Shown in pieces: positions 1 to 60,687 of a stretch of 64,000 nucleotides of DNA. The translations under genes were made by a program, and so were the position numbers. This DNA comes from Deroplatys truncata (Eukaryota > Arthropoda > Insecta > Mantodea > Mantidae). The DNA is taken from contig CM060977.1 in the NCBI GenBank assembly GCA_030765065.1, positions 128,344,295 to 128,408,294 of the forward strand, read 5' to 3'. Position 1 is the stretch's first letter, and every line of letters starts with the position of its first letter. Under the pieces are notes generated by a model. It made no database searches and was not told where the DNA came from. It saw only the letters and a program-made list of their open reading frames with translations.

Positions 1-455
1 CTGCGCATATAAAAATAGAGAATTTTTGAATTGATGTAAACATACATATATGTAATATACACATTCTGACTTCCAGCAGATGGATCATTTATAAGTAATA
101 CATGTTCCCCAATTAATGAGAATTAATACACACCACGCTGCATGTAGACATAGAACTAATGGAAAGAAAATACCGTATTCCTTTGTCAATGTATCAATAC
201 AACCGCGGATGGGACGGGATAATAAACCTTGTCCCGCACCAAGGCTACAAGTATCTGCTTGCAAGACCGCACTAAAGATACGCAACTTACAATCAAGTTT
301 TGATGTAGCGAAGAGAAAATCGATCGTGGCTACTTTTCATTCTTTCCCCAGTGATAGGCGCCTCCAAGAAACACCTAAAGAAATAAACATTGCACATGTT
401 TTAACTTCTTCGTTTAATACCTTTAAAGACCGATGCATACAAGAATTATATATTA
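1..455. other. Non-coding stretch, nothing recognised
   Basis: A 122-codon open frame runs from 116 to 484 on the plus strand. It shows no domain, composition or motif I recognise, and its end overlaps the left terminus of the transposon that starts at 456. I treat it as chance. Confidence 0.5.
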
Positions 456-1442
456 CACTAGTCTGCATGATACCGGATGACTAAAAACTAATAAGTAATT
501 CTGACTCACTTTTTTATGCTCATTTCAGAACTGCTGTTAGTTCTTTTTCTATCACGTAGTCTTTTCACAATTTCACTTTAAAAATATAGAGATATAAAGA
601 TATTGCTTCCGCCACTACACATAAAATTGGGCTTGATGAAGCATTTTGTAAGGGCTCTACCACAGGATGGGCCCTGCTTCAAGTACCTTTCCGAGAAATT
701 TCCCTTCATTACACAAGAGAAATTAAAGGCTGGAATTTTTGTTGGTCCCCAAATAAAGAAATTGATGAAGGACGAAGATTTTGAGAAGACAGTGAATGAG
801 AGAGAAATAGAAGCATGGACCGCCTTCCGATCAGTTACTGAAAACATCTTAGGCAATAACAAAGATCCTAATTACAAGGTCATTATCAAAACAATGTTGA
901 AAATTTCAAGAAGATGGGTTGTAACGTGAGTGTAAAGGTGCATTTTCTGCATTCACATATCCACGCCTTTCCAGAAAATCTGGGACATTATAGCAGGGTG
1001 AACGTTTTCACCAAGTTATTAAGGAAATGGAGAGGAGGTACCAGGAGAGATGGAATGAAACTATGATGGCCGACTACTGTTGGATGTTGAGGAGGGACAG
1101 TCATCTTCAAGGATCTGAAAGGAAGTCAAAGAAGAGAAAGTTTGAAAAAAATTAAATGAAGCACTTTGACTTCTTGTTTTGCTAAAATATAGTCTGAAAT
1201 AAATTAGGGAAGTTCTTGAGAGTATTCTTAAAATGTTTCTTGAATAAAAACTTACCTTGTGTGAAATGCTATTTGAATACTTTTCTACGCTCATTAGTAA
1301 AATTGTCAAAACATTACTTATTTTGTGTAAAACGTGATAGAAATAAATGGAAGTTTTATCTGGAATCAGCATAAAAACTTGATTTAAGTACACCTACTTT
1401 TAAGAAATCATCAGACAAAAAGTTTGAAAATGCAAACTAATG
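456..1442 (+). mobile_element. Non-autonomous DNA transposon with CACTA-like termini, copy 1
   Basis: The left end reads CACTAGTCTGCAT (456-468). The right end reads ATGCAAACTAATG (1430-1442), its inverted complement with two mismatches. The trinucleotide TTA directly flanks both sides (453-455 and 1443-1445), which fits a 3-bp target-site duplication. CACTA-type termini with a 3-bp duplication are typical of the EnSpm/CACTA superfamily, but no CACTA transposase is present, so the class is inferred. A second copy with the same termini lies inverted at 21168-22128. The interior carries the 3' portion of a conserved protein-coding gene (582-1155) followed by AT-rich sequence. Confidence 0.85.
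582..1155 (+). pseudogene. 3' part of a conserved uncharacterised arthropod gene carried by a CACTA-like element
   Basis: The frame contains the motif LPPLHIKLGLMK near its start (from 603), then FVGPQIKKLMKDEDFE, EAWTAFRSVTENILGN and KVIIKTMLK. From memory these resemble the C-terminal region of a multi-copy uncharacterised protein family predicted in aphids, hydrozoans and other animals; I know of no assigned function. After about 960 the original frame is broken. A second frame carries GERFHQVIKEMERRYQ (about 1001-1048), then MMADYCW, and ends in a lysine/arginine-rich tail with a stop at 1153-1155. There is no ATG at the start: the frame opens after a stop at 579, so the 5' part of the gene is absent. 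The fragment sits wholly inside TIRs at 456 and 1442. It is either a remnant of the transposon's own gene or a captured piece. Confidence 0.75.
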
Positions 1443-1729
1443 TTATAAACGAATCATTCTAATTTGTAAATATTTTTTTTTGGTCAAACTTGAGCTTATG
1501 TGAGAGAAAACCGAAGGACGGCCACTTTTATTTTCCATCTACTTTCTCTAACAAACGTCCCAGCTTGATCTGCAACATCAATGTGACAATGGCACCTTGT
1601 AAATTTTTATCTCTCTCTTATGGTTCGCAACTTATTCGAAATTATACAAATTTTACCTAAATGAAGATGGCTACCTAAGATACACACAAACTTCAAGGTA
1701 TACAATTTATTAATGCAGTATCTCAAACA

Positions 1730-5918: not shown

Positions 5919-6310
5919 CAGTCTTACCGAGATCACGCTACTTATCCACCGTATTATTTGGTCTGAGTGCTATCGTAGAGGTGGTAAGTAATTGGAGTTG
6001 TGGCGGATGAAGCGTCGCTTGTATAGGTTTTACGCAGGCACTCCAGCTTTCCCTGTCATGCGTTTCATCTATTATTACATAATGTATGTGCCATTAGCCT
6101 TGTGCGCACAATAACCCTTTCGTTAAATGTGATGATGTAATCCATGGAATTACGTTGCGCGTAAAAAGGGGGAAAAATCTATCCTTTTGGAAACTAAAAC
6201 AAATACTCAAGATGACGTTAGATGTAGTGCTAAACCATATCATTATTTTTATTATTAGTAGTATAAGCGGCATATAAGACAAACGTTTATGATATTTCTT
6301 TCGGAACATA
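5918..6310. other. Non-coding
   Basis: No gene, repeat unit or RNA structure that I can recognise. Confidence 0.4.
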
Positions 6311-6450
6311 TTTTTACTTTCTCTACTACGTATAGTAAGTCGGGGAAGTATTGCATTCCACCCAAAAATTCGATACCGAGATTTCACCGGAAATACATGT
6401 TTTGAGACCTCCTGAATCCAAAAAAAGCATTTTTGGAAACATGTCCGTGT

Positions 6451-6499
<49 letters not shown>

Positions 6500-7222
6500 T
6501 GTGTGTGTGTGTCTGTGTGTCTGTGAACAGCATAACTCAAAAACGAACAGTCGGATAAGCACCAAACTTGGTATTTAGGTTTAGTATCTTCCAGAGATGC
6601 GACACGATGGTTTTCAAGAAAATCCCCCCACCCCAGACTACCCTTTACATGGAAGATTTTTCGAAAATTTTAATTTTCTCAAAAATGGCTCTAACGATTT
6701 TGATGAAAATATCATATCTTTAAGATAAGGTCATGAGAAATGAAATATATATCTCGAATTTTCTGGGAATGTCTCCAAAAGTATTCTTCACTGTGAACGA
6801 CTTTTGCATAACTGGTAAACCATAAGAGATAGACAAAATGTTACTACACAAAAAATGTAGATCGCGTTAAAATACACAACTTATGTCATATACATTTCTT
6901 TTGTAGAGTGAACCGTTTTCGAGATATTGCTTGTTATTTCCTTAAATTTTCGAATACTTATACTTTTTCTCAAATTCGTTATTCATTTCTTTTATGTCCT
7001 GGACATGCAAAGAGAATGGAATGCGCCACATAGCAACCAGCGTTAAAATATTTGACTATCGCTTAAAAGCTACCATATTCCCCTTGCATCTACATGAATA
7101 TTACCAATAAGATTGACATCTCGATATCTCGATTAACATGAAGCATATGGAGAATAAGCGTTTGTAAAATCAGATTGTACAAGAGTAGAGAAAGTCATGT
7201 GAGTGTAACACATCAGATTTTT
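6311..7222 (+). mobile_element. HR-A repeat, full-length reference copy
   Basis: This copy shows every family hallmark. The 5' T-run is followed by ACTTTCTCTACT (6316-6327). A long TG-rich tract lies at about 6447-6531. The inverted motif AGTAGAGAAAGT is at about 7185-7196, then ATGTG-AGTGTAA-CACAT, which can form a 5-bp hairpin, then CAGATTTTT. The inverted repeats are asymmetric: the left one starts about 5 nt from its end and the right one lies almost 30 nt from its end. No protein is encoded; frames rich in Thr-His or Val-Cys are microsatellite translations. Confidence 0.92.
6447..6531 (+). repeat. TG/TGTC microsatellite inside HR-A copy
   Basis: An almost pure TG run is interrupted by single TC units. 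The same internal position carries a tract of different length in each HR-A copy in the window. Confidence 0.95.
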
Positions 7223-7667
7223 CTATATATTTTGCTTATCTGTAATAATAAAAGGATACATGAAGAGGAATTTGTGTATCATAATATTGTAAAAGAAACC
7301 TTGACCATAACGGTAGGTAGATACAAAGTCGAAAACGCAGTAACATGGCATAGGCTATTGTCATTCCTTTCTCTTAACAATATGCCTGGCAGCACCGCTA
7401 TGATGTGAATTCTCGAACGAGTAAATGCTCATTTCGTACTAGAGGGTATGTGAACCAGCTGAGCCATAGTTCGGTATATTCATTGCTGCTTTTCGAACTA
7501 GTTGGGGTGGAAGAAATGAGCCAGTCTCACTGTGTACCATATGAAATGGATGAGTAAACCGCATGTCTTTGACAGCTCTAGCTACAAAAGCCAGCAGCTA
7601 CCTTCCAAATCAGCCTCTGATACACTATCTTTTAAGGGGGCTTCACATATGAAATGATCGAATATTT
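7223..7667. other. Non-coding
   Basis: Short open frames overlap the tail of the neighbouring HR copy. No gene or repeat is recognised in the remainder. Confidence 0.4.
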
Positions 7668-10112: not shown

Positions 10113-11502
10113 CACTGCCGTTTGTGAAAATTACAGCACCATAAAAGAATTTCCCGAATAACTCCATACTTGGTGGAAGTGTAAAAGAGTGTGCAAGCAA
10201 TAAGTGATTAGGTTTGCAGAGAGATGGGGTACACGTAGGCCGAGCAGAGCCCTCTCGTGTCGGTCCGACAAGGTCAGTTCTGCGCCCAGTGTAGTCAGTG
10301 CAGCGCTGACAAAAAAGGTGGAAACAATAAAGTGAGTTCCAGTATGCCTCGTCGACGTCACAGGGAGCCATATCGGCATGTGAGCGAGTTCAAACGGAGC
10401 AGAATGATCGGTCTCCGGGAAGCGGGTTTTTCATACTGTGACATTTAGACTCATACAGGGCATGCTGCTACGAAAGTGATACGAGTGTGGAAGCAGTGGA
10501 TAGTTGAAGGTCGTACGCAGCGAAGAGCGGGTACTGGACCACGGAACATGACCACAGCACGGGATGACCATCTATTGTCCGCATGGCCATAACGGACCGT
10601 ACAGCTTCATCCAGTATTGCCTCGACGCTAGAGCACTGCGACAGGCGTGAACTTGTCTGCTTCAACGGTTCGTCGCGTCTGCTGCAGGTTGGACTGGTTG
10701 CATGCATGCCATCACGTCGGCTTCCATTTCCAGAAACCACAAGCTTCTCAGACTGCAATGGGCACATGAACACCGTCACTGGAGTGCTGAGTGGCAAAAT
10801 GTACTCTTTTTGGACGAGTCTCGCTCCAGCGTATCCTACAGTGATGGACGCATACTCGTCCGGCGGTACCGTGGTGAGCGCAACCTGGAGGGCTGCATTG
10901 TTGCGCGGCATAGCGGACAAACACCAGGTGTGATGGTTTGGGGCGCCATTGGTTACAGCAACCAATTTCGCCTCCTACGAACTGAAGACACTTTGAACAG
11001 CAACCGGTACCTAACGGTGGCTGTAGAGGGTGAGGTACTCCCCCTGCTTCAGGCATCTCCACAGGCCATATTTCAACAGGACAGTGCCCGGCCACATATT
11101 GCGAAGAATGTACAAGCCTTCTTCGAAGAGCGACGGGTACCATTGCTTCCCTGGCCTGCACGTTCGCCTGACATGTTGTCCATCGAATATGTCTGGGATA
11201 TGGTTGGTCGGCATCTGGTGCGTCACGGTCATCCATAACCAGTGTCACGGGCTTTTAGGCTCGAATACAAAATGCGTGGAGGAAAATCCTTCAGGAACTT
11301 ATTGAGAATCTTTTGATTCAATGCCATGACGTATAGCAGCTCTATTGGCAGCGCATGGAGGCCATACAAAATGCTGAATATTACGGCTCAAAGGTTATGT
11401 ATAGGTTTGAAAAGCTTATCATTTGTTACCTAACCTGTGGTATTAAATTCATTGAATTCATACATTTCCTTCTTGGTGTCGCAGTATTCACAAACGGCAA
11501 TG
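10113..11502 (+). mobile_element. Tc1-like element (DD34E) with imperfect TIRs
   Basis: The left end CACTGCCGTTTGTGAAAATT (10113-10132) and the right end (about 11466-11502) are inverted complements over roughly 37 bp with scattered mismatches. TA follows the right end (11503-11504); the left flank has CA where TA is expected. The element encloses a broken transposase gene (10344-11377). A 5'-truncated sibling with the same right TIR lies at 59900-60635. Confidence 0.9.
10344..11377 (+). pseudogene. Tc1-like transposase, multiply broken
   Basis: The start ATG at 10344 begins MPRRRHREPYRHVSEFKRSR, the N-terminal DNA-binding region, and meets a stop after 34 codons (about 10447). After frame changes, the frame 10702-11238 carries the DDE domain: VLFLDES with the first Asp, GVMVWGAIGYSN, FQQDSARPH with the second Asp, and WPARSPDMLSIEYVWD with the catalytic Glu. 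Exactly 34 residues separate the second Asp and the Glu. A premature stop follows HLVRHGHP, where the sibling copy at 60 kb continues to AHGGHTKY. The catalytic residues survive, but stops and frameshifts prevent expression. Confidence 0.92.
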
Positions 11503-12418
11503 TATATAGTAAAGAAAATACAATTGTGAAAAGTACATAACCTGAAGAGTTTATAAATTACGTTACAATAATTTGGTATTAATATTTAACGTACATTTTC
11601 CTTCACTTTAGACCTGTAAGTGTATAAGTACATTTCATACCTCATGGGCAGACAACATAATTGTCAGGGTTCAGCATTATTTAATTTGGCTTCCACAATT
11701 GTTAGTAAGTACCTTAAATTTAATACATCAATGTAAATGAACGGTGCAAATAATAGCAGTGCAAGCCCTACACATTTAAAAGAGATTGTGTGAAGTAGTA
11801 ATTACTTAAAGGTAAAGAGTACAAAGTCTGTATACAATACGAAAGAAAATGAGAAAATCAAACAGGATATCACCCATCTGCGGTTGTTTCGGTAACTAAG
11901 AAAACAGTGCGGACGTTTGGGAATCAAGCCGCTTCAAAGATCGACGAGAGCGTGAGTATGGAATAGAAGTTTATCAGGCAATAGGTAAGTTAACTGGTTT
12001 GGAATGCATTCCATTTGTTCACAGTTCAATCACTAATTCGAATTTCCAACTTCGAAAATGCTAATGGCTGCAACCATCCTACCTGTAGTTACCGTGTGTT
12101 CAACACGAATTGTGTGTGTACATAAGGCTTATAAAATCCAAGATAACCACTGTGCTGTAAGGAAGATCCCTGGATAAGAACGTCTCGGGGATGTGCTTCA
12201 TGAAACTGGCAGGGTTCAGGTACGTAAATAGGACAAGTGTTCTAAAGTACAAAGCATAATGATGTCTTTTTTCAAATTATTTGCTGTTGTATACGTATAA
12301 AAACTGAATATGAATCTTTTTCAAGTATTAGGAAACAGTTATATGTGCTTTTCACATTCTAGGGGCATGTTAAAAGGTCCGATTTGCGATAAAGTGGAAT
12401 CACTGAATATGTTTCGTC
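11503..12418. other. Non-coding AT-rich stretch
   Basis: Nothing recognised on either strand. Short frames lack motifs. Confidence 0.4.
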
Positions 12419-13505: not shown

Positions 13506-14812
13506 GTGTATCTTTATTGGTTTCATATTTTGGGGGGACGCGTTCCTGACATAAAAACAGTAAAAAAAAAAGGTTCATATGTACATGGGTCTGAAAATCA
13601 ACCGTTTCGTTGTTATAGGTCAAAGAAGATGTATTCCAGAGTGAACAGACGAATATGCACTACAAGTATGGACGTGTAGACAGCAATGCAGCACGAGCAC
13701 GTAAACTTTATGCAGAAAGGTACCCTGACAGACCGTTACCGTGTGCAAGAACATTCGCACGAATTTACCAACGCTTGAGAGAGAATGGCCCATTTGAGAG
13801 GAGTACTAGGGATATTAGGAGATCAAGAGCGGTACGAAGCATTGAGCTTGAAGAACGAGTTTTTCGTGCAGTGGATGCAGAGCCATCACAAAGCACAAGA
13901 CGTATGGCTGTAAGGGAAAGAGTTAGTTACACGACTATCTGGAGAATTCTGTATGAAAATCTTCTGTACCCGTATCACCTTCAACGTGTGCAAGGATTAA
14001 ACGAAGCGGACTTTGAGCCAAGAAGACGTTTCTGTCAACGCATGTTACAGCATTGCGCTGCGTTCATAAATTTCCTAGCCTGTATCTTATTCACGAATGA
14101 GGCTGGTTTTGCTCGCGACAGCATCTTCAATTTTCATAACACTCATAACCGGGCATTTGAAAATCCTAATGAAGTACGACAGATCAAGCATTAACAGAGG
14201 TTCTCTCTCAACGTTTGGAGTGGAATCATTTATGATGACCTTATTGGTCCCTACTTCTTCCCTCCGCGTCTGAATGGACAGATCTATCTGCAGTTTCTCA
14301 GAAATGAGTTGCATCATTCAACTGATAATGTGCCTCTGGACATCGTCCAACGAATGTGGTTCTTACACGATAGTGCTCCAGCTCATTTCAGTATGATAGT
14401 TCGTAAGTTTTTGAATGATTGACTTCCTCAAAGATTGATTGGTCGAGGGGGACCTATTGCATGGCCTGCGCAATCGGCTGATTTGAATCCAATGGTCTGG
14501 GGACATTTGAAGACCTTGGTTTATGCGACTCCTATACCTGATGTTGACAGTTTGAGAGGACGTATTCAAACTGGATTTGACCGAATACGAAACACACCAG
14601 GAATTTTCTACAGAGTACGCCAGGGCATGGAATGCAGTCTTACCGCATGCATCAAGGCAAAAGGAAGCCACTACAAGCAATTCTTGTAACTTTCGATTTT
14701 TTGTTGCAACTCAGAAATAAATGATTTTCAGACTCATGTTCATATGTACTTTTTTTACTGTTTTGATGTCACGAACACGTCCCCCAAATATATGATACCA
14801 ATAAAGATACAC
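13506..14812 (+). mobile_element. DUF4817-type IS630/Tc1/mariner-superfamily transposon with long TIRs
   Basis: The left arm starting GTGTATCTTTATTGG (13506) and the right arm ending in CCAATAAAGATACAC (14812) are inverted complements for roughly 85-95 bp. The shared inner motifs are GGGGGACG-GTTC-TGACAT, AAAACAGTAAAAAAA, a motif near TTCATATGTACAT, and GTCTGAAAATCA. The enclosed gene is a broken transposase. The flanks carry no unambiguous target duplication. Confidence 0.88.
13655..14689 (+). pseudogene. Transposase, DUF4817-type N-terminus and DDE domain, inactive
   Basis: The N-terminus (MHYKYGRVDSNAARARKLYA, then ERYPDRPLPCARTFARIYQR) fits the helix-turn-helix region I know as DUF4817. 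The following region reads VSYTTIWRILYENLLYPYHL. At the first catalytic site the usual Asp reads Asn (FTNEAGF). The frame stops at 14194, continues in another frame (SLNVWSGIIYDDLIGPYFFP, FLHDSAPAHFS with the second Asp), meets a stop near 14420, and resumes at 14435 with WPAQSADLNPM-VWGHLK. About three residues that should include the third acidic residue are missing after NPM. By alignment the second and third acidic residues would be about 41 apart. The gene is dead on several counts. Confidence 0.85.
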
Positions 14813-16152
14813 TCTATATACAGCAGAATGCCAGTAGAATGTCATGGAAGGAATAAAGTGCTTGATTTCTACCGTACTGGCCTCCTCAGCCAAATTAAAC
14901 GGTAATATACACTTTATTATTAAATTTCTAAGCTAGAGTCATGTAATGCTGTAATACTACACAAAAATTAAGGAAGAGTGGTGGGTAATTTTAAAAACTC
15001 GTATTGCTTGCGGAAAGGTTTAATGTTGGGAAGGTTAACAGCAAAGTTGTGTTACTAAGAATAGTAAATTCAGACTTGAGTGGCAGAAAGATGGCGGTGA
15101 TTGAGAAAAGTTTTCGCCTCGTTACGTCAATTGTAATTATGGGTGTCTTATCCTACAGTGTCTTTGGGGGGAAGTAAAATGAGTATAATATCGTCACAAT
15201 TATTATTTAAGCTAAATATATTTTATATGTATTTATTATTACAGTTATTAAAGTACTAGCACAAAATATTTGTTTTATAATTTCAATCCATCATCTGTAT
15301 CCTAAGTCATAGCTCCATACAAGGAATTATAAATTGTTAATGTGTTTAATACTATTCAAATGGCGTATTTATAAACTACTCTATAACTAATTGAATTATT
15401 CCGTGGTCTAGTACGCTGAAGTGATTCTTGATTTATGGCTATAAAGGTAGCCTGAGAACTAGGTCGCTACAGTAAGTGGTAGCGAATTAGGCTGGCCTAA
15501 TAACCAAGTTGCGAAAGTGTGGGGCAACACACAATTTATTTAATTGATATTTGATATTATATACGACATATTATTTATTTTATGTAGTCTTAGAAAATGC
15601 GGCACGCAACGCTTTCTCCCTCACCGGTTTCTCATGCAACTTGTAAACTTTCTAAAACAGCAGGGCGGTACAAAATTGCGACACTCATCTATATTTCTAA
15701 TGCTCTTCGTGTTCACGACTGAGAAAATGCTATAAACATTTACGTCAGAGTGTGGTCCTCAGGTATCACAACGCTTCAAGGACACTCAGAGTACCAGATG
15801 TTACTACTGCACGCCACTGCATTAACTACCCCCATCCCCTTCCGCCCCGACACGGCACGTGAAGTGACATCCATCACGTGACCAATAAACTGTGTGATGA
15901 TGCATGTTAACCTAGTTACCAGCGCTTCTAGAGAGAACCTTACTTAGAGAATTACAATGGGTTAGAATGTATTCTAACTCAGGCTCTATTGCTTGAAAAG
16001 CAACAACAATCATTGTCAATAGGTTATAGTTTATTTTAGGCTTAGGTTTATAAACAGTAGCTTCGTCACAAGTACATAGTTATAATGTAATGCTAGTCAC
16101 ATTTATATACTCGTATAAAACATAAACGGGATTTAAAATTAAACAATTATTA
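14813..16152. other. Non-coding AT-rich stretch
   Basis: No gene or repeat unit is recognised across 1.3 kb. Short open frames (for example 15544-15735) lack motifs. This is one of the few candidate unique-sequence intervals in the window. Confidence 0.4.
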
Positions 16153-16948
16153 TTTTTACTTTCTCTGCTACGTATAGTAAGTAGGGGAAGTATTGTATTC
16201 CACCCAAAAATTCGATACCGAGATTTCGCCGGAAATACATGCTTTGAGACCCCCTGAATCCAATAAAACTATTTTTGCAAACATGTCCGTGTGTGTGTCT
16301 GTGAACAGCATAACTAAGAAACGAACAGTTGAATAAACACCAAACTTGGTATTTAGGTTCAGTATCTTCCAGAGATACGACACGAAGGTTTTCAAGAAAA
16401 ATCCCGCCACCCCAGATTACCCTTTACATGGAACATTTTTCGAAAATTTTAATTTTTTCAAAATGGCTCTATGAAATGTAAATCTCGAATTTTCTGGGAA
16501 TGTCTCCAAAAGTATTCTTCATTGTGAACGACTTTTGCATAACTGGTAAACCATAAGAGATAGGCAAAATTTTACTACACAAAAATGTAGATCGCGTTAA
16601 AATACACAATTTATGTCATATACATGTTTTTTATTGAGTGAACCATTTTCGAGATATTACTTGTTATTCCCTTAAATTTTTCAATACTTATACTTTTTCT
16701 CAAATGAGAATTTGTTATTCATTTTTTATGTCCTGGACATACAAAGAGAATGGAATGCGCCACATAGCAACCAGCTCTTAAAAAAATTGACTATCGCTTA
16801 AAGCCTACCAATTCCCCTTGCACCTACAAGAAAATTAGCAATAAGATTAACATCTCGATTAACATGAAGCATATGGAGAATAAGCGTTTGTAAAAATATT
16901 TGTACAAGATTATAGAAAGTCATGTGAGTGCAACACATCAGATTTTTT
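16153..16948 (+). mobile_element. HR-A repeat with internal deletion
   Basis: Both termini are present (TTTTTACTTTCTCTGCTACG at the left; ACACATCAGATTTTTT at the right). A deletion removes the segment between 'AAAATGGCTCTA' and 'TGAAATGTAAATCTCGA'. The microsatellite is short (about four TG units). Confidence 0.88.
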
Positions 16949-17373
16949 AAATATATATTATGTTAAATGTATTTATATATATATATATACACACAGTCGT
17001 AAACATTAGAGATGATATATAGTCGATAGATATACTAATTACATATAAACACACAAAGTAAAACAAATCTAGATAAACTTGTATGTACAAACGTTTTTTA
17101 AATCTTATAGATATGTTTTAGTGAAATATTTTTTCAATTTTATAAAAGGGATTGTCGATCAGCTAGCGTCATAAAATACATTAAAACTGACACTATATGC
17201 CTCTGGAGGTAGACAATTGAACGCATCCAAGCAGGAATATGGAACAGTTGTTTTGACTTTTTCTAACCTAACATTTGGTACGTTAATTTGATAATTATAC
17301 TTTGTTGGATAATGATGAATCTCAGATCTGAAGTGCAGTATGCTAGTATTTATACTGTGTTTCATTTAAGTTA
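16949..17373. other. AT-rich non-coding with short (TA)n tracts
   Basis: A TA dinucleotide tract lies near 16975-16990. The minus-strand frame 17159-17365 has no recognised domain. Confidence 0.4.
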
Positions 17374-21005: not shown

Positions 21006-21167
21006 ACTCTTTCCAGCCAAATGGCATCACTATGTATATTTATTGTATAAAGTTAGATAAGGAAGTTTACTTGCAAGCGTTAAAATTCAATAAGTTCCTA
21101 TCTTTGAAATATATGTTCTTTAAATTTGATATTATCGTAGCCTAAAAAAAAAAAAAAAAAAACATAA

Positions 21168-22128
21168 TACTAGTCTGCATTTTAAAACTTTTTGTCAGAT
21201 GATTTCTTAAAAGTAAGTGTTCTTGAATCAAATTTTATGCCGATCCAGAAATAACTTCCGATGCTTTTCTATCACGTCAGATTTTTACACAAAAAAGAAG
21301 TAATGTTTTGACAATTTTACTAATGAGCGCAGAAAGTATTCAAACACCATTTCACACAAAGAAATTTTTATTCCAGAAACATTTTAAGAATACTCTCAAT
21401 AACCCCCTAATTATTTCACGACTACATTTTAACAAGACAAGAAAATTGTTTCATTTAATTTTTTTCAAACTTTCTCTTCTTTGACTTCCTTGCAGATCCT
21501 TGAAGATAAATGTCCCTCCTCAACATCCAATAGTAGTCGGCCATCACAGTTTCATTCCATCTCCCCTGGTACCTCCTCTCCATTTACTTACTGCTCTTCA
21601 CTATAATTTCCCATAATTTCTGGAAAGTAGTTGATATGTGAAACAAAAAATGCACCTTTCACTCATGTTACAACCCACTTTCTCGAAATTTTCCGACATT
21701 GTTTCGACAATGGCCTTGTAATTAGGACCTTTGTTGTTGCCCAAGAAGTTTTCAGTAACTGATCGGAAGGCGGTCCATGCTTCTATTTCTCTCTCATTCA
21801 TTATCTTCTCAAAATCCTTCATCAATTTCTTTGAGGACCAACAAAAATTCCATTCTTTAATTTGTGTTGTGTAATGAAGGGAAATTTCTTGGAAAGGTAC
21901 TTGAAGCAGGGTCCATCCTGTGGTAGAGCCCTTACAAATTGCTTCATCAAGCCCAATTTTATGTGTAGTGGCGGAAGCAATATCTTTATATCTCTATATT
22001 ATTGAAGTGAAGTTGTGAAAAAAACTGTACGTGATAGAAAAAGCTAACGGTAGTTCTGAAATCAGCATAAAAAAGTGAGTCAGAATCACTTATTAGTTTT
22101 CAGTCATCCGATATCATGCAGACTAGTG
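21168..22128 (-). mobile_element. Non-autonomous DNA transposon with CACTA-like termini, copy 2
   Basis: The plus-strand left end reads TACTAGTCTGCAT (21168-21180). The right end reads ATGCAGACTAGTG (22116-22128), so the CACTAG terminus is intact at that end. TAA flanks both sides (21165-21167 and 22129-22131). In the element's own orientation this is TTA, the same trinucleotide as at copy 1. The interior is colinear with copy 1 in reverse orientation from terminus to terminus. A poly-A run (21144-21162) lies just outside the end. Confidence 0.87.
21465..22010 (-). pseudogene. 3' part of the same conserved uncharacterised gene as at 582-1155
   Basis: The minus-strand frame 21601-21825 reads DFEKIMNEREIEAWTAFR, SVTENFLGNNKGPNYK and VGCNMSE. 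Upstream, the LPPLHIKLG-coding region lies at about 21940-21985 in a shifted frame. Downstream, a deletion removes the segment that encodes GERFHQVIKE in copy 1. The terminal YCW-like and lysine-rich segment remains. The lesions differ from those of copy 1, so the two copies decayed independently after amplification. Confidence 0.75.
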
Positions 22129-22131
22129 TAA

Positions 22132-30490: not shown

Positions 30491-30767
30491 GTCTTGGATA
30501 TGCAAAGAGTATTAATCTGTGGGAAAGGGAATGGTGCTCCACCTAGCAACCAGCTATTAAGAGATATGTATGTGCTTAAGGGCTACTGTATTTCGATACT
30601 GCCCTTGTAAATATATATTCCCCTTACATCTACAAGAAAATTAGCAATAAGATAGAGTCTGCAAATGTTTATCTCGATTAACATGAAGTAGATGAAGAGT
30701 AAGCGTTTGTAAAAATAGTTTGTACAAGAGTAGAGAAAGTCATGTGAGTGTAACACATCAGATTTTT
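30491..30767 (+). repeat. HR tail module, tandem duplicate
   Basis: This is a second copy of the 3' module only. It begins 'GTCTTGGATATGCAAAGAG' and ends AGTAGAGAAAGT, hairpin, CAGATTTTT. It abuts the preceding tail and runs directly into the head of the next copy with no intervening DNA. Confidence 0.9.
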
Positions 30768-31690
30768 ATTTTCTCTACTACGTATAGTAAGTAGGGGAGG
30801 TATTGTATTCCGCCCAAAAATTCGATACCGAGATTTCACCGGAAATACATGTTTTGAGGCCCCCTGAATCCAAAAAAACATTTTTGGAAACATGTCCGTG
30901 TGTGTCTCTGTGTGTCTGTCTGTCTGTGTGTGTGTCTGTCTGTGAATAGCATAATTCAGAAACGAACAGTCGGATAAACACCAAACTTGGTATTTAGGTT
31001 CAGTATCTTCCAAGGATGAGACACGAAGGTTTCCAAGAAAATCCCCCCACCCCAGAGTACCCTTTACATGGAAGATTTTACGAAAATTTTAATTTTTTCA
31101 AAAATGGCTCTAACGATTTTGATTGAAATATCATATGTTTAAGATATTTTTATGACAAATAAAATGTATATCTTGAATTTCCTGGGAATGTCTCCAAAAG
31201 TATTCTTTATTGTGAACGACTTTTGCATAACTGGTAAACCATAAGATATAGACAAACATTTACTACACAAAAAAATGTAGATCGCGTTAAAATACACAAT
31301 TTATGTCATATACATTTCTTTTGTTGAGTGAACCATTTTCGAGATATTGCTTGTTATTCCCTTAAATTTTTCAATACTTATATTCTCAAATGGTAATTCG
31401 TTATTCACTTTTTTGTCTTGGATATGCAAAGAGTATTAATCTGTGGGAAAGGGAATGGTGCTGCACCTAGCAACCAGTTATTATGAGATATGTATGTGCT
31501 TAAAGGCTACTGTATTCCCAAATTTCCCTTGTAAATATACATTCCCCTTACATCTACAAGAAAATTAGCAATAAGATAGACTCTGCAAATGTTTATCTCG
31601 ATTAACATGAAGTAGGTGGAGAATAAGCGTTTGTAAAAATAGTTTGTACAAGAGTAGAGAAAGTCATGTGAGTGTAACACATCAGATTTT
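30768..31690 (+). mobile_element. HR-A repeat, full-length
   Basis: The head joins the preceding CAGATTTTT and reads ATTTTCTCTACTACG. The TG/TGTC tract is at 30897-30943. The tail ends ACACATCAGATTTT. It is in tandem with copies on both sides. Confidence 0.9.
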
Positions 31691-32484: not shown

Positions 32485-33342
32485 CACTATGTGATCAAAT
32501 GTATCCGGACACCCACACAAACATACGTTCTTCATCTTAGGTGCATTGTGTTGCCACCTACTGCCTGGTACTCATCCGCGACCTCAGTTGGCATTAGACA
32601 CAGTGAAAGAGCAGAATGGGACGCTCCGTGGAACTCACGGACTTCGAACGTGGTCAGATGATTGGGTGTCACTTGTGTCAGAAGTCTGTACGCGACATTT
32701 CCACACTCCTAAACATCCCTAGGTCCACTGTTTCGGTTGTGATAGTGAAGTGGAAACGTGAAGGGACATGTACAGCACAAAAGCGTACAGGCCGACCTCG
32801 TCTGTTGACTGACAGAGACCGCCGACGTTTGAAGAGGGTCGTAAAGGGTAATAGGCAGACATCTATCCAAACCATCACACAGGAATTCCAAACTGCATCA
32901 GGATTCATTCCAAGTACCATGACAGTTAGGCGTGAGGTGAAGAACCTTGGATTCCATGGTCGAGCGGCTGCTCATAAGCGACACATCACGCAGGAAAATG
33001 CCAAACGACGCCTCGCTTGGTGTAAGGAGCGTCAACATTACACGACTGAACAGTGGCAGTGCAGTGACGAATCACGGTACATAATGTGGCGATCCGATGG
33101 CAGGATGTGTGTATGGCGAATGCCCGGTGAACGTCATCTGCCAGCGTGTATAGTTCCAACAGTGAAATTCGGAGGTGGTGGTGTTATGGTGTGGTCGTGT
33201 TTTTCCTGTAGGGGGCTTGCACCCCTTGTTGTTTTGCGTGGCACGATCACAGCGCAGACCTACATTGATATTTTACGCACCTTCTTACTTCCTACTGTTG
33301 AAGAGCAATTCGGTGATGGCGATTGCATCTTTCAACACCATC
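32485..33342 (+). mobile_element. Tc1-like element, 3'-truncated
   Basis: The left terminus CACTATGTGATCAAATGTAT follows a TA (32483-32484), as expected for a Tc1 family member. The transposase frame begins at 32616. Similarity ends abruptly just before the second catalytic Asp, and no right TIR is present. Confidence 0.88.
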
Positions 33343-33371
33343 TTTCTCTGATGGTTAGCAATTTTAAATAA
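32616..33371 (+). CDS. Tc1-like transposase, C-terminally truncated but open for 251 codons
   Basis: This is the longest uninterrupted frame in the window. Residues 1-60 (MGRSVELTDFERGQMIGCHL, then SVRDISTLLNIPRSTVSVVI) form a helix-turn-helix. KRTGRPRLLTDRDRR is the GRPR-type AT-hook linker, and a second HTH follows. The first catalytic Asp is in SDESRY (about residue 150). GGGGVMVWSCFS and TAQTYIDILRTFLLP are typical Tc1 signatures. At FQH the expected Asp-Asn-Ala-Pro motif is replaced by unrelated residues and a stop, so the second Asp and catalytic Glu are missing. The product could bind DNA but not catalyse transposition. The open frame suggests a more recent arrival than its neighbours. 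Confidence 0.9.
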   Translation: MGRSVELTDFERGQMIGCHLCQKSVRDISTLLNIPRSTVSVVIVKWKREGTCTAQKRTGRPRLLTDRDRRRLKRVVKGNRQTSIQTITQEFQTASGFIPSTMTVRREVKNLGFHGRAAAHKRHITQENAKRRLAWCKERQHYTTEQWQCSDESRYIMWRSDGRMCVWRMPGERHLPACIVPTVKFGGGGVMVWSCFSCRGLAPLVVLRGTITAQTYIDILRTFLLPTVEEQFGDGDCIFQHHLSLMVSNFK

Positions 33372-40861: not shown

Positions 40862-41696
40862 ATTACTTTTACTTACTCTAGGGGAAGTATTGTATTCCAC
40901 CCAAAAATTCGATACAGAGATTTCACCGGAAATATATGTTTTGAGACCCCCTGAATCCAAAAAAGTATTTTTGGAAACATGTCCGTGTGTGTTTGTGTCT
41001 GTGAACAGCATAACTCAGAAACGAACAGTCAGATAAGCACCAAACTTGGTATTTAGGTTCAGTATCTTCCAGAGATGCGACACGAAGGTTTACAAGAAAA
41101 TCCCCCCACCCCAGATTACCCTTTACATGGAACATTTTCCGAAAATTTTAATTTTCTCATAAATAGCTCTAATGATTTTAATTAAAATATCATATGTTTA
41201 AGATATTTTCACGACAAATAAAATGTATATGTCAAATTTTCTGGGAATGTCTCCAAAAGTATTCTTCATTGTGAACGACTTTTGATAACTGGTAAACCAT
41301 AAGAGATAGACAAAGTTTTACTACACAAAAATTTAGATCGCGTTAAAATATACAATTTATGTCATATACATTTTTTTGTTGAGTGAGCCATTTTCGAGAT
41401 ATTGCTTGTTATTCCCTCAAATTTTCCAATACTTATACTTTTTCTCAAATGGAAATTAGTTATTCATTTTTTGGTCCTGGTAATGCAAAGAGAATGGAAT
41501 ACTGCACATAGCAACCAGCTCTTAAAATATTTGACTATCACTTAAAGCGACCTATTCACCTTGCATCTACAAGTAAATTAGCAATAAGATTAACATCTCG
41601 ATTAGCATGAAGCATATGGAGAATAAGCGTTTGTGAAAATAGTTTGTACAAGAATAGAGAAAGTCCTGCGATTATAACACATCAGAATTTTTCTAC
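40862..41696 (+). mobile_element. HR-A repeat with shortened head
   Basis: The head reads ACTTTTACTTACTCTAGGGG, lacking the usual CTACGTATAGTAAGTA segment. The body and tail are complete, ending GAATAGAGAAAGTCCTGCGA and ACACATCAGAATTTTT. The next copy follows directly. Confidence 0.87.
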
Positions 41697-53554: not shown

Positions 53555-54400
53555 TTTTTTACTTTCTCTACTACATATAGTAAGTAGGGGAAGTATTGTA
53601 TTCCACCCAAAAATTCGACACCGAAATGTTACCGGAAATACATGTTTTGAGGCCCCCTGAATCCAAAAAACATTTTTGGAAGCATGTCCTTGTGTGTGTC
53701 TGTGTGTCTGTCTGTCTGTCTGTCTGTGAACAGCATAACTCAGAAACGAACAGTCGGATAAACACCAAACTTGGTATTTAGGTTCAGTATCTTCCGGAGA
53801 TGCGACACGAAGGTTTTCAAGAAAATCTCCCCACCCCAGGTTACCCTTACATGGAACATTTTTAGAAAATTTTAATTTTCTCAAAAATGGCTCTAACGAT
53901 TTTTAATAAAATATCACATGTTTAAGATATTTTCATGACAAATTAAATGTATATCTTGAATTGTCTGGGAATGTCTCCAAATGTCTTCTTCATTGTGAAC
54001 GACGTTTGCATAACTGGTAAACCATAAGAGATAGACAAAATTTTACTACACAACAAATGTAGATCGCGTTAAAATACACAATTTAGGCCATATAATTTTT
54101 TTTGTTGAGTGAACCATTTTAGAGATATTGCTTGTTATTCCCTTAAATTTTCCAATACTTATATTTTTTCTCAAATGGGAATTCGTTATTCATTTTTTTT
54201 GTCCTGGTAATGCAAAGAGAATGGAAAATTCGACATAGCAACCAGCTCTTAAAATATTTGACTATCGCTTAAAGCCTACCAATTCCTCTTGCATCTACAA
54301 GAAAATTAGCAATAAGATTAACATCTCGACTAACATGAAGGATATGGAGAATACGCGTTTGTAAAAATAGTTTGTACAAGAGTAGAGAAAGTCATTTGAG
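53555..54400 (+). mobile_element. HR-A repeat, extreme tail lost
   Basis: The head TTTTTTACTTTCTCTACTAC is at 53555. A TG/TGTC tract lies at about 53692-53728. It ends at AGTAGAGAAAGTCATTTGAG, so the terminal hairpin and T-run are missing. Confidence 0.9.
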
Positions 54401-57363: not shown

Positions 57364-58214
57364 AAAAAAATCTGATGTGTTACACTCACATGAGTTTCTC
57401 TACTCTTGTACAAATTATTCTTACAAACGCTTATTCTCCATATGCTTCATGTTAATCGAGATGTTAATCTTATTGCTAATTTTCTTGTAGGTGCAAGGGG
57501 AATATGGCAGGCTTCAAGAGATAGTCCAATCTTATAAGAGCTAGTTGCTATGTGGCGCATTCCATTCTCTTTGCCTGTCCAGTAAATAAAAAATGAATAA
57601 CCAATTCCCATTTGAGAAAAAGTATAAGAATTGGAAAACTTAAGGGAATAACAAATAATATATCGAAAATGGTTCACTCGACAACAAAAATTGTATATGA
57701 CATAAATTGTGTATTTCAACGCGATCTACACTTTTTGTGCAGTAAAAGTTTGTCTATCTCTTATGGCTTATCAGTTATGCAAAAGTCGTTTACAATGAAG
57801 AATACTTTTGGAGACATTCCCAGAAAATTCGAGATATACATTTGATTTCCCATGAAAGTATCTTAAACATATGATATTTTAATCAAAATCGTTAGAGCCA
57901 TTTCAGATAAAATTAAAGTTTTCAAAACATTTTCCATGTAAAGGGTAAGCTGGGGTGGGATTTTTCTTAAAAGCCTTCGTATCGCGTCTCTGGAAGATAC
58001 TGATTCTAAATACCAAGCATGGTGTTTATCCGATTGTTCGTTTATGAGTTATGGTGTTCACAGACACACACAGAACCACACACGGACATGTTTCCAAAAA
58101 TGCCTTTTTGGATTCTGGGGTCGCAAAACATGTATTTCCGGTGAAATATCGGTATCGAATTTTTGGGTGGAATACAATACTTCCCGTATTTACTATACAT
58201 AGTAGAGAAAGTAA
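57364..58214 (-). mobile_element. HR-A repeat, minus strand, nested in HR-B
   Basis: It begins AAAAAAATCTGATGTGTTAC and ends TAGTAGAGAAAGTAA at 58214. Host HR-B sequence resumes at once (TATGTGGATAGAAGAATACA). The host flanks join with no clear duplication beyond an A/T run, so the insertion defines both element ends. Confidence 0.9.
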
Positions 58215-59899: not shown

Positions 59900-60635
59900 T
59901 TTGGGGTGCTGAGTGACAAAATGTAGTCTTTTCGGTCGAGTCCCGCTTCAACGTGTCCTACAGTGATGGCCACATACGTGTCCGGCAGCACCGTGGTGAG
60001 CGCAAGTGGAGGGTTGCATTGTTGAGCGGCATAGCGGAAAAACTCCATGTGTGATGGTTCGGGCGCCATTGGTTACTACAACCGATGTCGCCTCCTACGA
60101 ATTGAGGGCACTTTGAACAGCAACCGGTACCTAACGGTGGTTGTAGAACCTGAGGTACTCCTCCTGCTTCAGGCATCTCCACAGGCCACATTTCAACAGG
60201 ACAGTGCCCGGCCACATATTGCGAGGAATGTACAAGCCTTCTTCGAAGAGCGACGGTTACCATTGCTTCCCTGGCCTGCACGTTCGCCTGACATGTCGCC
60301 CATCGAACATGTCTGGGATATGGTTGGTCGGTACCTGGTGCGTCACGGTCCTCCAGTAACCAGTGTCACGCATTTGTGGGCTCGAATACAAACTGCGTGG
60401 AGCGAATTCCCTCAGGAACATATTCAGAACCTTTTTTATTCAATGCCACGGCGTATAGCAGCTCTAATTGTAGCGCATGGAGGCCACACCAAATACTGAA
60501 TATTAGGGCTCAAAGGTCATGTATAGATTTGAAATGTTTATCATTTGCTACTTGTCATGTACCCAACCTGTGGTATTTAATTCATTGAATTCATGAGTTT
60601 CCTTCTTGGTGTTGCAATTTTCACAAACAGCAGTG
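59900..60635 (+). mobile_element. 5'-truncated Tc1-like element, sibling of the 10.1-kb copy
   Basis: It joins at 'GGGGTGCTGAGTGACAAAAT', homologous to about 10777 of the other copy. It continues to the right TIR (CACAAACAGCAGTG ending at 60635) followed by TA. The left TIR and the N-terminal coding half are missing. Confidence 0.9.
60047..60499 (+). pseudogene. Tc1-like transposase, C-terminal half
   Basis: This open frame of 150 codons carries GAIGYYNRCRLLRIEGTLNS, FQQDSARPHIARNVQ with the second Asp, and WPARSPDMSPIEHVWD with the catalytic Glu 34 residues on. It ends in AALIVAHGGHTKY and a stop. The C-terminus is complete, unlike the copy at 10344-11377. The first catalytic Asp region lies upstream in another frame (59900-60046), with its Asp codon altered. 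Confidence 0.9.
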
Positions 60636-60637
60636 TA

Positions 60638-60687
60638 GTTTGTACAGGAATATAGAAACTCATGTGAGAGCAACACATCAGATTTTT
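60638..60687 (+). mobile_element. HR tail fragment
   Basis: It reads GTTTGTACAGGAATATAGAA and ACTCATGTGAGAG, then ACACATCAGATTTTT. This is the 3' terminus of the copy whose head lies at 59826. Confidence 0.8.

Follow-up and report, generated by a model that had tools for sequence, protein, structure and literature searches.

Two copies of a high-copy, probably Chapaev3-like transposon derivative in Deroplatys truncata and the putative transposase family to which their gene fragment belongs

Abstract

Two related insertions, E1 and E2, were analysed in a 64,000-nucleotide stretch of the genome of the mantis Deroplatys truncata (assembly GCA_030765065.1, contig CM060977.1, positions 128,344,295 to 128,408,294; this whole stretch is henceforth called the window). 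They are very probably high-copy, non-autonomous copies of a Chapaev3-like element, and the LPPLHIKLGLMK protein family, a fragment of whose gene both of them hold, is very probably that element's own transposase. Elements of this kind are already known, and the result is useful mainly for identifying the protein family.

Results

Two copies of one element in the window

E1 (Table 1) is read directly from the window as TTA followed by CACTAGTCTGCAT on the left and as ATGCAAACTAATG followed by TTA on the right. A preliminary description of this DNA had taken the ends for inverted complements between TTA duplications; TTA does stand on both sides, but the 13-base ends are imperfect inverted complements that agree at 11 of 13 positions, and the right tip is ATG, changed from GTG. 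Farther inside lies a pair of subterminal inverted arms, the score of which was reached by none of 500 base-shuffles of one arm. The same description had placed the 3' part of a gene of the LPPLHIKLGLMK family between the ends, and this is confirmed by the reading frames: the protein fragment reads LLPPLHIKLGLMK from position 603 and continues in pieces in three frames to the stop at 1155, and the copy is frame-broken. Compared with the product of L050, a longer copy described below, the fragment shows 85% amino acid identity over 184 positions.

E2 aligns with E1 from end to end at 86.7% identity, in an alignment of 1,009 columns that takes in the TTA on either side, and its internal breakpoint and, in the orientation of the element, its TTA duplication are the same. 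The search for the end pattern in the 64-kb window with up to two mismatches returned 8 matches, no more than chance when compared with the 5.98 expected, and two of these (at 21168 and 22128) bound E2. We regard the ends of E1 as non-chance because of what the search turned up, namely another pair of ends and the alignment with E2, and not because of the number of matches.

Table 1. Positions of E1, E2 and their parts in the window
Feature	Positions	Strand	Length, basis or remark
E1, probable non-autonomous Chapaev3-like element, internal-deletion derivative	456..1442	+	987 bp
E1 left target-site duplication TTA, preceded by A	453..455	.	read directly, flanks printed
E1 outer left terminal repeat CACTAGTCTGCAT	456..468	+	read directly
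E1 inner left arm of long imperfect inverted repeat	511..570	+	shuffle test (see text)
Deletion breakpoint, ~1.3 kb internal, common to E1 and E2	585..596	+	TAGAG microhomology by eye; alignment with L050
E1 putative transposase gene, 3' part (LH motif, H(4)H, last E motif, C-terminus), frameshifted	597..1155	+	reading frames
E1 inner right arm of long imperfect inverted repeat	1323..1377	-	shuffle test
E1 outer right terminal repeat, CATTAGTTTGCAT on the minus strand	1430..1442	-	2 mismatches to the left end
E1 right target-site duplication TTA, followed by T	1443..1445	.	read directly
E2, second copy of the same non-autonomous element	21168..22128	-	961 bp; alignment to E1
E2 target-site duplication, TAA on the plus strand, TTA in element orientation	21165..21167	.	
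E2 other target-site duplication	22129..22131	.	
E2 putative transposase 3' fragment, same as that of E1, frame-broken	21455..21986	-	

The window also contains other repeats. A dispersed repeat of ~0.85 kb occurs on both strands at more than a dozen places between 5052 and 62230, with ~70-89% identity in the long matches (examples are 6305-7225, 16150-16950, 30763-31690, 40879-41695, 53556-54400 and 57364-58214), and an ORF at 6094-6669 that overlaps one of its copies has no match in Pfam. Remnants of Tc1/mariner-type transposases, recognised by matches to DDE_3, DUF4817 and HTH_Tnp_Tc3_2, are found at 10651-11238, 13619-14194, 32607-33371 and 59902-60650, the last of which is an 87% copy of 10780-11517.

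Copy number and target sites across the genome

The source assembly comprises 4.29 Gb in 818 contigs. A search with E1 produced 2,244 first-look candidates, and the best 40 of them yielded 42 matching rows: the window copy itself at 100%, 39 rows at 88-93% identity and two short pieces with identities of 84 and 86%. Among these rows from the best 40 candidates, 24 of 42 cover 950 or more of E1's 987 bases. The exact 21-base left end CACTAGTCTGCATGATATCGG, from which E1 differs at one base, occurs 1,621 times genome-wide, and 1,327 of these occurrences (82%) are preceded by ATWA, compared with 1.6% of the positions in the window. TTA followed by the 25-base left end, with up to three mismatches allowed anywhere, is found 3,669 times in the genome, compared with no occurrence of the reversed control.

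Flanks were read for 11 E1-type copies (E1, E2, L002-L008, L049 and L050), and identical TWA trinucleotides were found on both sides of seven of them (E1, E2, L002, L004, L005, L008 and L050). The exceptions are L003 and L007 with unequal flanks, L006, which has lost its left end, and L049, which has AAA on both sides. Among L002-L008, six of the seven start with CAC (L006 being the one without a left end) and all seven finish with GTG, while single altered tips are seen in E1 (the ATG of the right end), E2, L049 and L050, that of L049 being at the left.

Related sites that lack the insertion were found with the joined flanks of both copies. For E1, 38 of 40 scored matches (from 394 candidates) are continuous insert-free sites with spans of 192-321 bp, and for E2, with a query of 300 bases, so are 38 of 40 (from 253 candidates; spans of 208-311 bp); in either case the remaining two matches are the window's own flanks. 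Two of the E2 sites were read, and they align across the join, with an A-rich junction that leaves the 3-bp duplication ambiguous. Discrete insertions and related sites without the insert, the pattern looked for as a sign of cut-and-paste movement, are both present. E1 and E2 each lie inside another dispersed repeat, as the numbers of flank candidates given above illustrate.

Longer copies with the same ends

A search with the first protein piece of E1 gave 150 scored matches out of 12,374 candidates, and in 9 of these 150 rows an open frame of at least 250 amino acids is present. One of the nine, L049, is 1.73 kb long and has E1-type ends, the first and second aspartate (D1 and D2) and the whole CxxC motif. 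Another copy, L050, was chosen for a left end and a match to the N-terminal half that lie 1.07 kb apart; it is 2.31 kb long and has E1-type ends and a TAA duplication. Its protein comprises an N-terminal Cys-rich region, a linker and a DDE-type region, in pieces in different frames. L050 has the rest of the protein, including both catalytic-type aspartates, and the first cysteine of CxxC is missing. A second pair of a left end and an N-half match, arranged as in L050, was noticed at C1:36473859 and 36474905.

Positions 1-136 of E1 correspond to 61-199 of L050 at 89% identity, and positions 130-984 to 1499-2371 at 91%. Since the two halves of E1 match separated parts of L050 and the breakpoint is common to E1 and E2, both copies derive from one internal deletion by which ~1.3 kb was lost.

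The longer E1-type copies hold the 5' part that is missing from E1, and for this reason we consider the gene to be the element's own, the reading 'encoded by' being better supported than 'carried by'. That E1 and E2 hold merely a fragment of the gene would also be expected if a transposon had once taken up a piece of a host gene and amplified it. We reject such a capture because the remainder of the gene stands where it should in the longer copies; it is contradicted by L050, it sits badly with the presence of the same gene in a second lineage with other ends and with the transposase-type motifs in the protein, and we find it scarcely credible.

A second lineage with the same gene

A 135-aa N-terminal half of the LPPLHIKLGLMK family, used as the query, gave 150 scored matches from 7,932 candidates, the best at 65% identity. 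Twenty loci of ~9.7 kb each were taken around the best 20 of these 150 matches; being the top of the list, they are no random draw. The N and C halves adjoin in the same orientation in 18 of the 20 loci, the C half often being in pieces; L041 has the N half only and the C half of L033 is split. In 11 of the 20, CACTGGGGAACA-type ends are found on both sides together with identical TWA between A and T; eight of these were paired by a script, and L036, L039 and L048 were paired by eye with 3 mismatches allowed. Both CACTGGGGAACA-type ends with unequal flanks are present in L041 and L045, and the left CACTGGGGAACA-type end only in L031, L033 and L035. The other four loci are of different lineages. 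In L040 and L042 a CACTAGGTTACA end is present on the right alone. The interval 3240-5895 of L043 holds a relative of the gene bounded by CACAGGCCTGCGA ends, and its ATT duplication breaks the TWA rule. No ends were found in the fetched ~9.7-kb locus of L046. The flanks of L044 were compared with L037 as a candidate local empty site, and this candidate (72% identity, gapped at the join) was set aside.

The eight script-paired elements measure 1.97-2.27 kb, with one exception of 3.45 kb. Together with L050 they are the nine longest copies read, and the whole protein stands in one frame in none of the nine, for which breaks and introns are both possible explanations. In this second lineage the same gene lies between CACTGGGGAACA ends and TWA duplications. 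The preliminary description had left it undecided whether the family is encoded by a CACTA-like transposon or repeatedly carried by one; L049, L050 and the second lineage speak for 'encoded', and the label 'CACTA-like' gives way to 'Chapaev3-like'. It had also considered that copies of the gene might generally lie outside such termini, which is not so in the best 20 of the 150 scored matches.

Motifs and domain searches

When the copies are combined, the protein displays an N-terminal Cys-rich region, D, D-x18-CxxC, LH, H(4)H and E, in which D, D and E form the putative catalytic triad. The motif sites were tallied in 21 loci (L029-L049), in rows that join frames and only where the region is present. 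D1 is kept in 20 of 21, D2 in 19 of 21 and each cysteine of C(2)C in 20 of 21; the leucine of LH is kept in 18 and its histidine in 17 of 20, the first histidine of H(4)H in 16 and the second in 19 of 19, and the last E in 17 of 19. Because the loci were picked by a match to a query that itself holds D1, D2 and CxxC, these tallies are descriptive and do not constitute an independent test. The N-terminal pattern CxxC...CxxC...W..H..CxxC is visible in many loci.

No Pfam match was obtained for the catalytic region, nor any sequence match to a transposase in NCBIfam or PDB. The N-terminal Cys-rich piece of L030 (3923-4177) has a weak match to zf-AD (E 0.003, below the Pfam cut-off), which two longer N-terminal pieces from other loci failed to reproduce. 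The only profile matches in PDB, two Scarecrow-like chains with E ~0.02, were taken as chance. Nothing useful came from searches of PDB, viral contigs and phage records with the E1 piece or from comparison of the family profile with viral contigs and genome contigs, and the exact motif strings were not found in the open-licence literature. In hhalign comparisons the RAG1 core scored no better than shuffles; with RAG1 108-223, compared with regard to the N-terminal 'Chapa' zinc domain, the score was 21.9, and shuffles with fixed cysteines reached up to 25.8.

Transposase_21 was absent at E<=1 from the three catalytic-region proteins searched against Pfam, though a very divergent domain could escape at this threshold; a fourth protein, an N-terminal piece, matched zinc domains weakly and nothing else. 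This result bears on the reading of the family as an En/Spm-type (TNP2-like) CACTA transposon, which would account for the CACTA start of the ends and for the 3-bp duplications, and which could also appeal to the C(2)C and H(3-4)H motifs common across the CMCT clade (PMC12730594, in excerpt) and to the CxxC and LH-type motifs of the animal TRC elements, in which the Transposase_21 domain is described (PMC1636069, in excerpt). Against it stand the missing Transposase_21 match and the A-TWA-T preference, which the available part of PMC4079192 describes for Chapaev3. We prefer Chapaev3 to an En/Spm-type CACTA transposon because the termini, the A-TWA-T target and the motifs fit the former, and judge the latter highly improbable.

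Discussion

How the copies may have arisen

The founder of E1 and E2 would have been a 2.3-kb Chapaev3-like element of the CMC group from the middle of which ~1.3 kb was lost. The lost stretch would comprise the Cys-rich N-terminal region and the part that holds the first two catalytic motifs; the two ends remained, as did the 3' third of the transposase gene. The transposase of full-length relatives would recognise the CACTAG... ends, excise the element and paste it into A-TWA-T with duplication of TWA, and the deletion derivatives would be mobilised in trans. LPPLH would then be the LH motif of the LPPLHIKLGLMK family transposase.

Gene models called 'uncharacterised' are common in animal genomes, and the LPPLHIKLGLMK family is among those so listed. 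With the identification proposed here, a family whose catalytic part is unmatched in Pfam would become a recognisable transposase. Annotators could mask it, and comparisons of Chapaev, Transib and RAG1 would gain a divergent relative. A bolder proposal is that the family represents a distinct and very abundant CMC lineage near Chapaev3, with RAG1-like spacing (D-x18-CxxC, H-x4-H, E-x2-E) and without a Pfam model, that stands behind many of the 'uncharacterised' animal gene models; we hold this to be rather doubtful.

Comparison with known systems

piggyBac elements duplicate TTAA, and this identity was ruled out by the TAA targets and by the base that follows TTA here. Tips of the CACTAG type do occur in piggyBac, for example in Kenshin, according to the available part of PMC4298943.

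The closest likeness is to Chapaev3 (Garfield, Merrow, Conan), as far as the excerpted account in PMC4079192 describes it: the ends are CAC..GTG, every element examined in that study duplicates TWA between A and T, the transposase has the motifs C(2)C, LH and H(4)H, short families have arisen by deletion, and one element measures 2,289 bp and encodes a protein of 556 aa. CAC...GTG termini, TWA duplications between A and T, a length of ~2.3 kb and short deletion derivatives were likewise found here, and the protein shows the same motifs. Chapaev is among the DNA transposons found in all arthropods surveyed in PMC6327564 (in excerpt). The relative in L043 with its ATT duplication differs, and the likeness is to a published description. 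A conceivable alternative is a CMC-group lineage that stands apart from Chapaev3 and shares its target preference, with this family as its transposase, a reading consistent with termini that vary (CACTAG, CACTGGGG, CACAGGCC) and with the lack of a profile-level link to any described family in our searches. We regard it as unlikely, given that the CAC..GTG ends, the A-TWA-T target, the order C(2)C/LH/H(4)H and the length fit Chapaev3 as published in the part of PMC4079192 available; the En/Spm reading discussed above is a special case of it, and the probabilities of the two overlap. With Chapaev3 as the preferred placement, EnSpm/CACTA remains similar in the CACTA start, the 3-bp duplication and the CMC-type motifs, but the family described here differs in the missing Transposase_21 match and in the A-TWA-T target preference.

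E1 also resembles MITEs and other internal-deletion derivatives, in which both ends are kept, the middle is lost and the copy number is high. It is, however, long for a MITE, and it differs in retaining the 3' third of the transposase gene.

Comparison with RAG1 reveals D-x18-C-x2-C, LH, H-x4-H and E-x2-E in the same order, but the distance from the second D to E is 197 residues here and 253 in RAG1, and a similarity at the profile level was undetected. By eye, an N-terminal Cys-rich region ending in W..H..CxxC is shared with Transib and RAG1. In the available parts of the respective papers, a zinc 'Chapa' domain, N-terminal in Chapaev3, is described in Chapaev3 and RAG1 (PMC4411706), and EnSpm/CACTA, Mirage, Chapaev, Transib and RAG1 are joined through their C(2)C and H(3-4)H motifs into a wider CMCT clade with 5'-CA..TG-3' ends and 2-5-bp duplications (PMC12730594).
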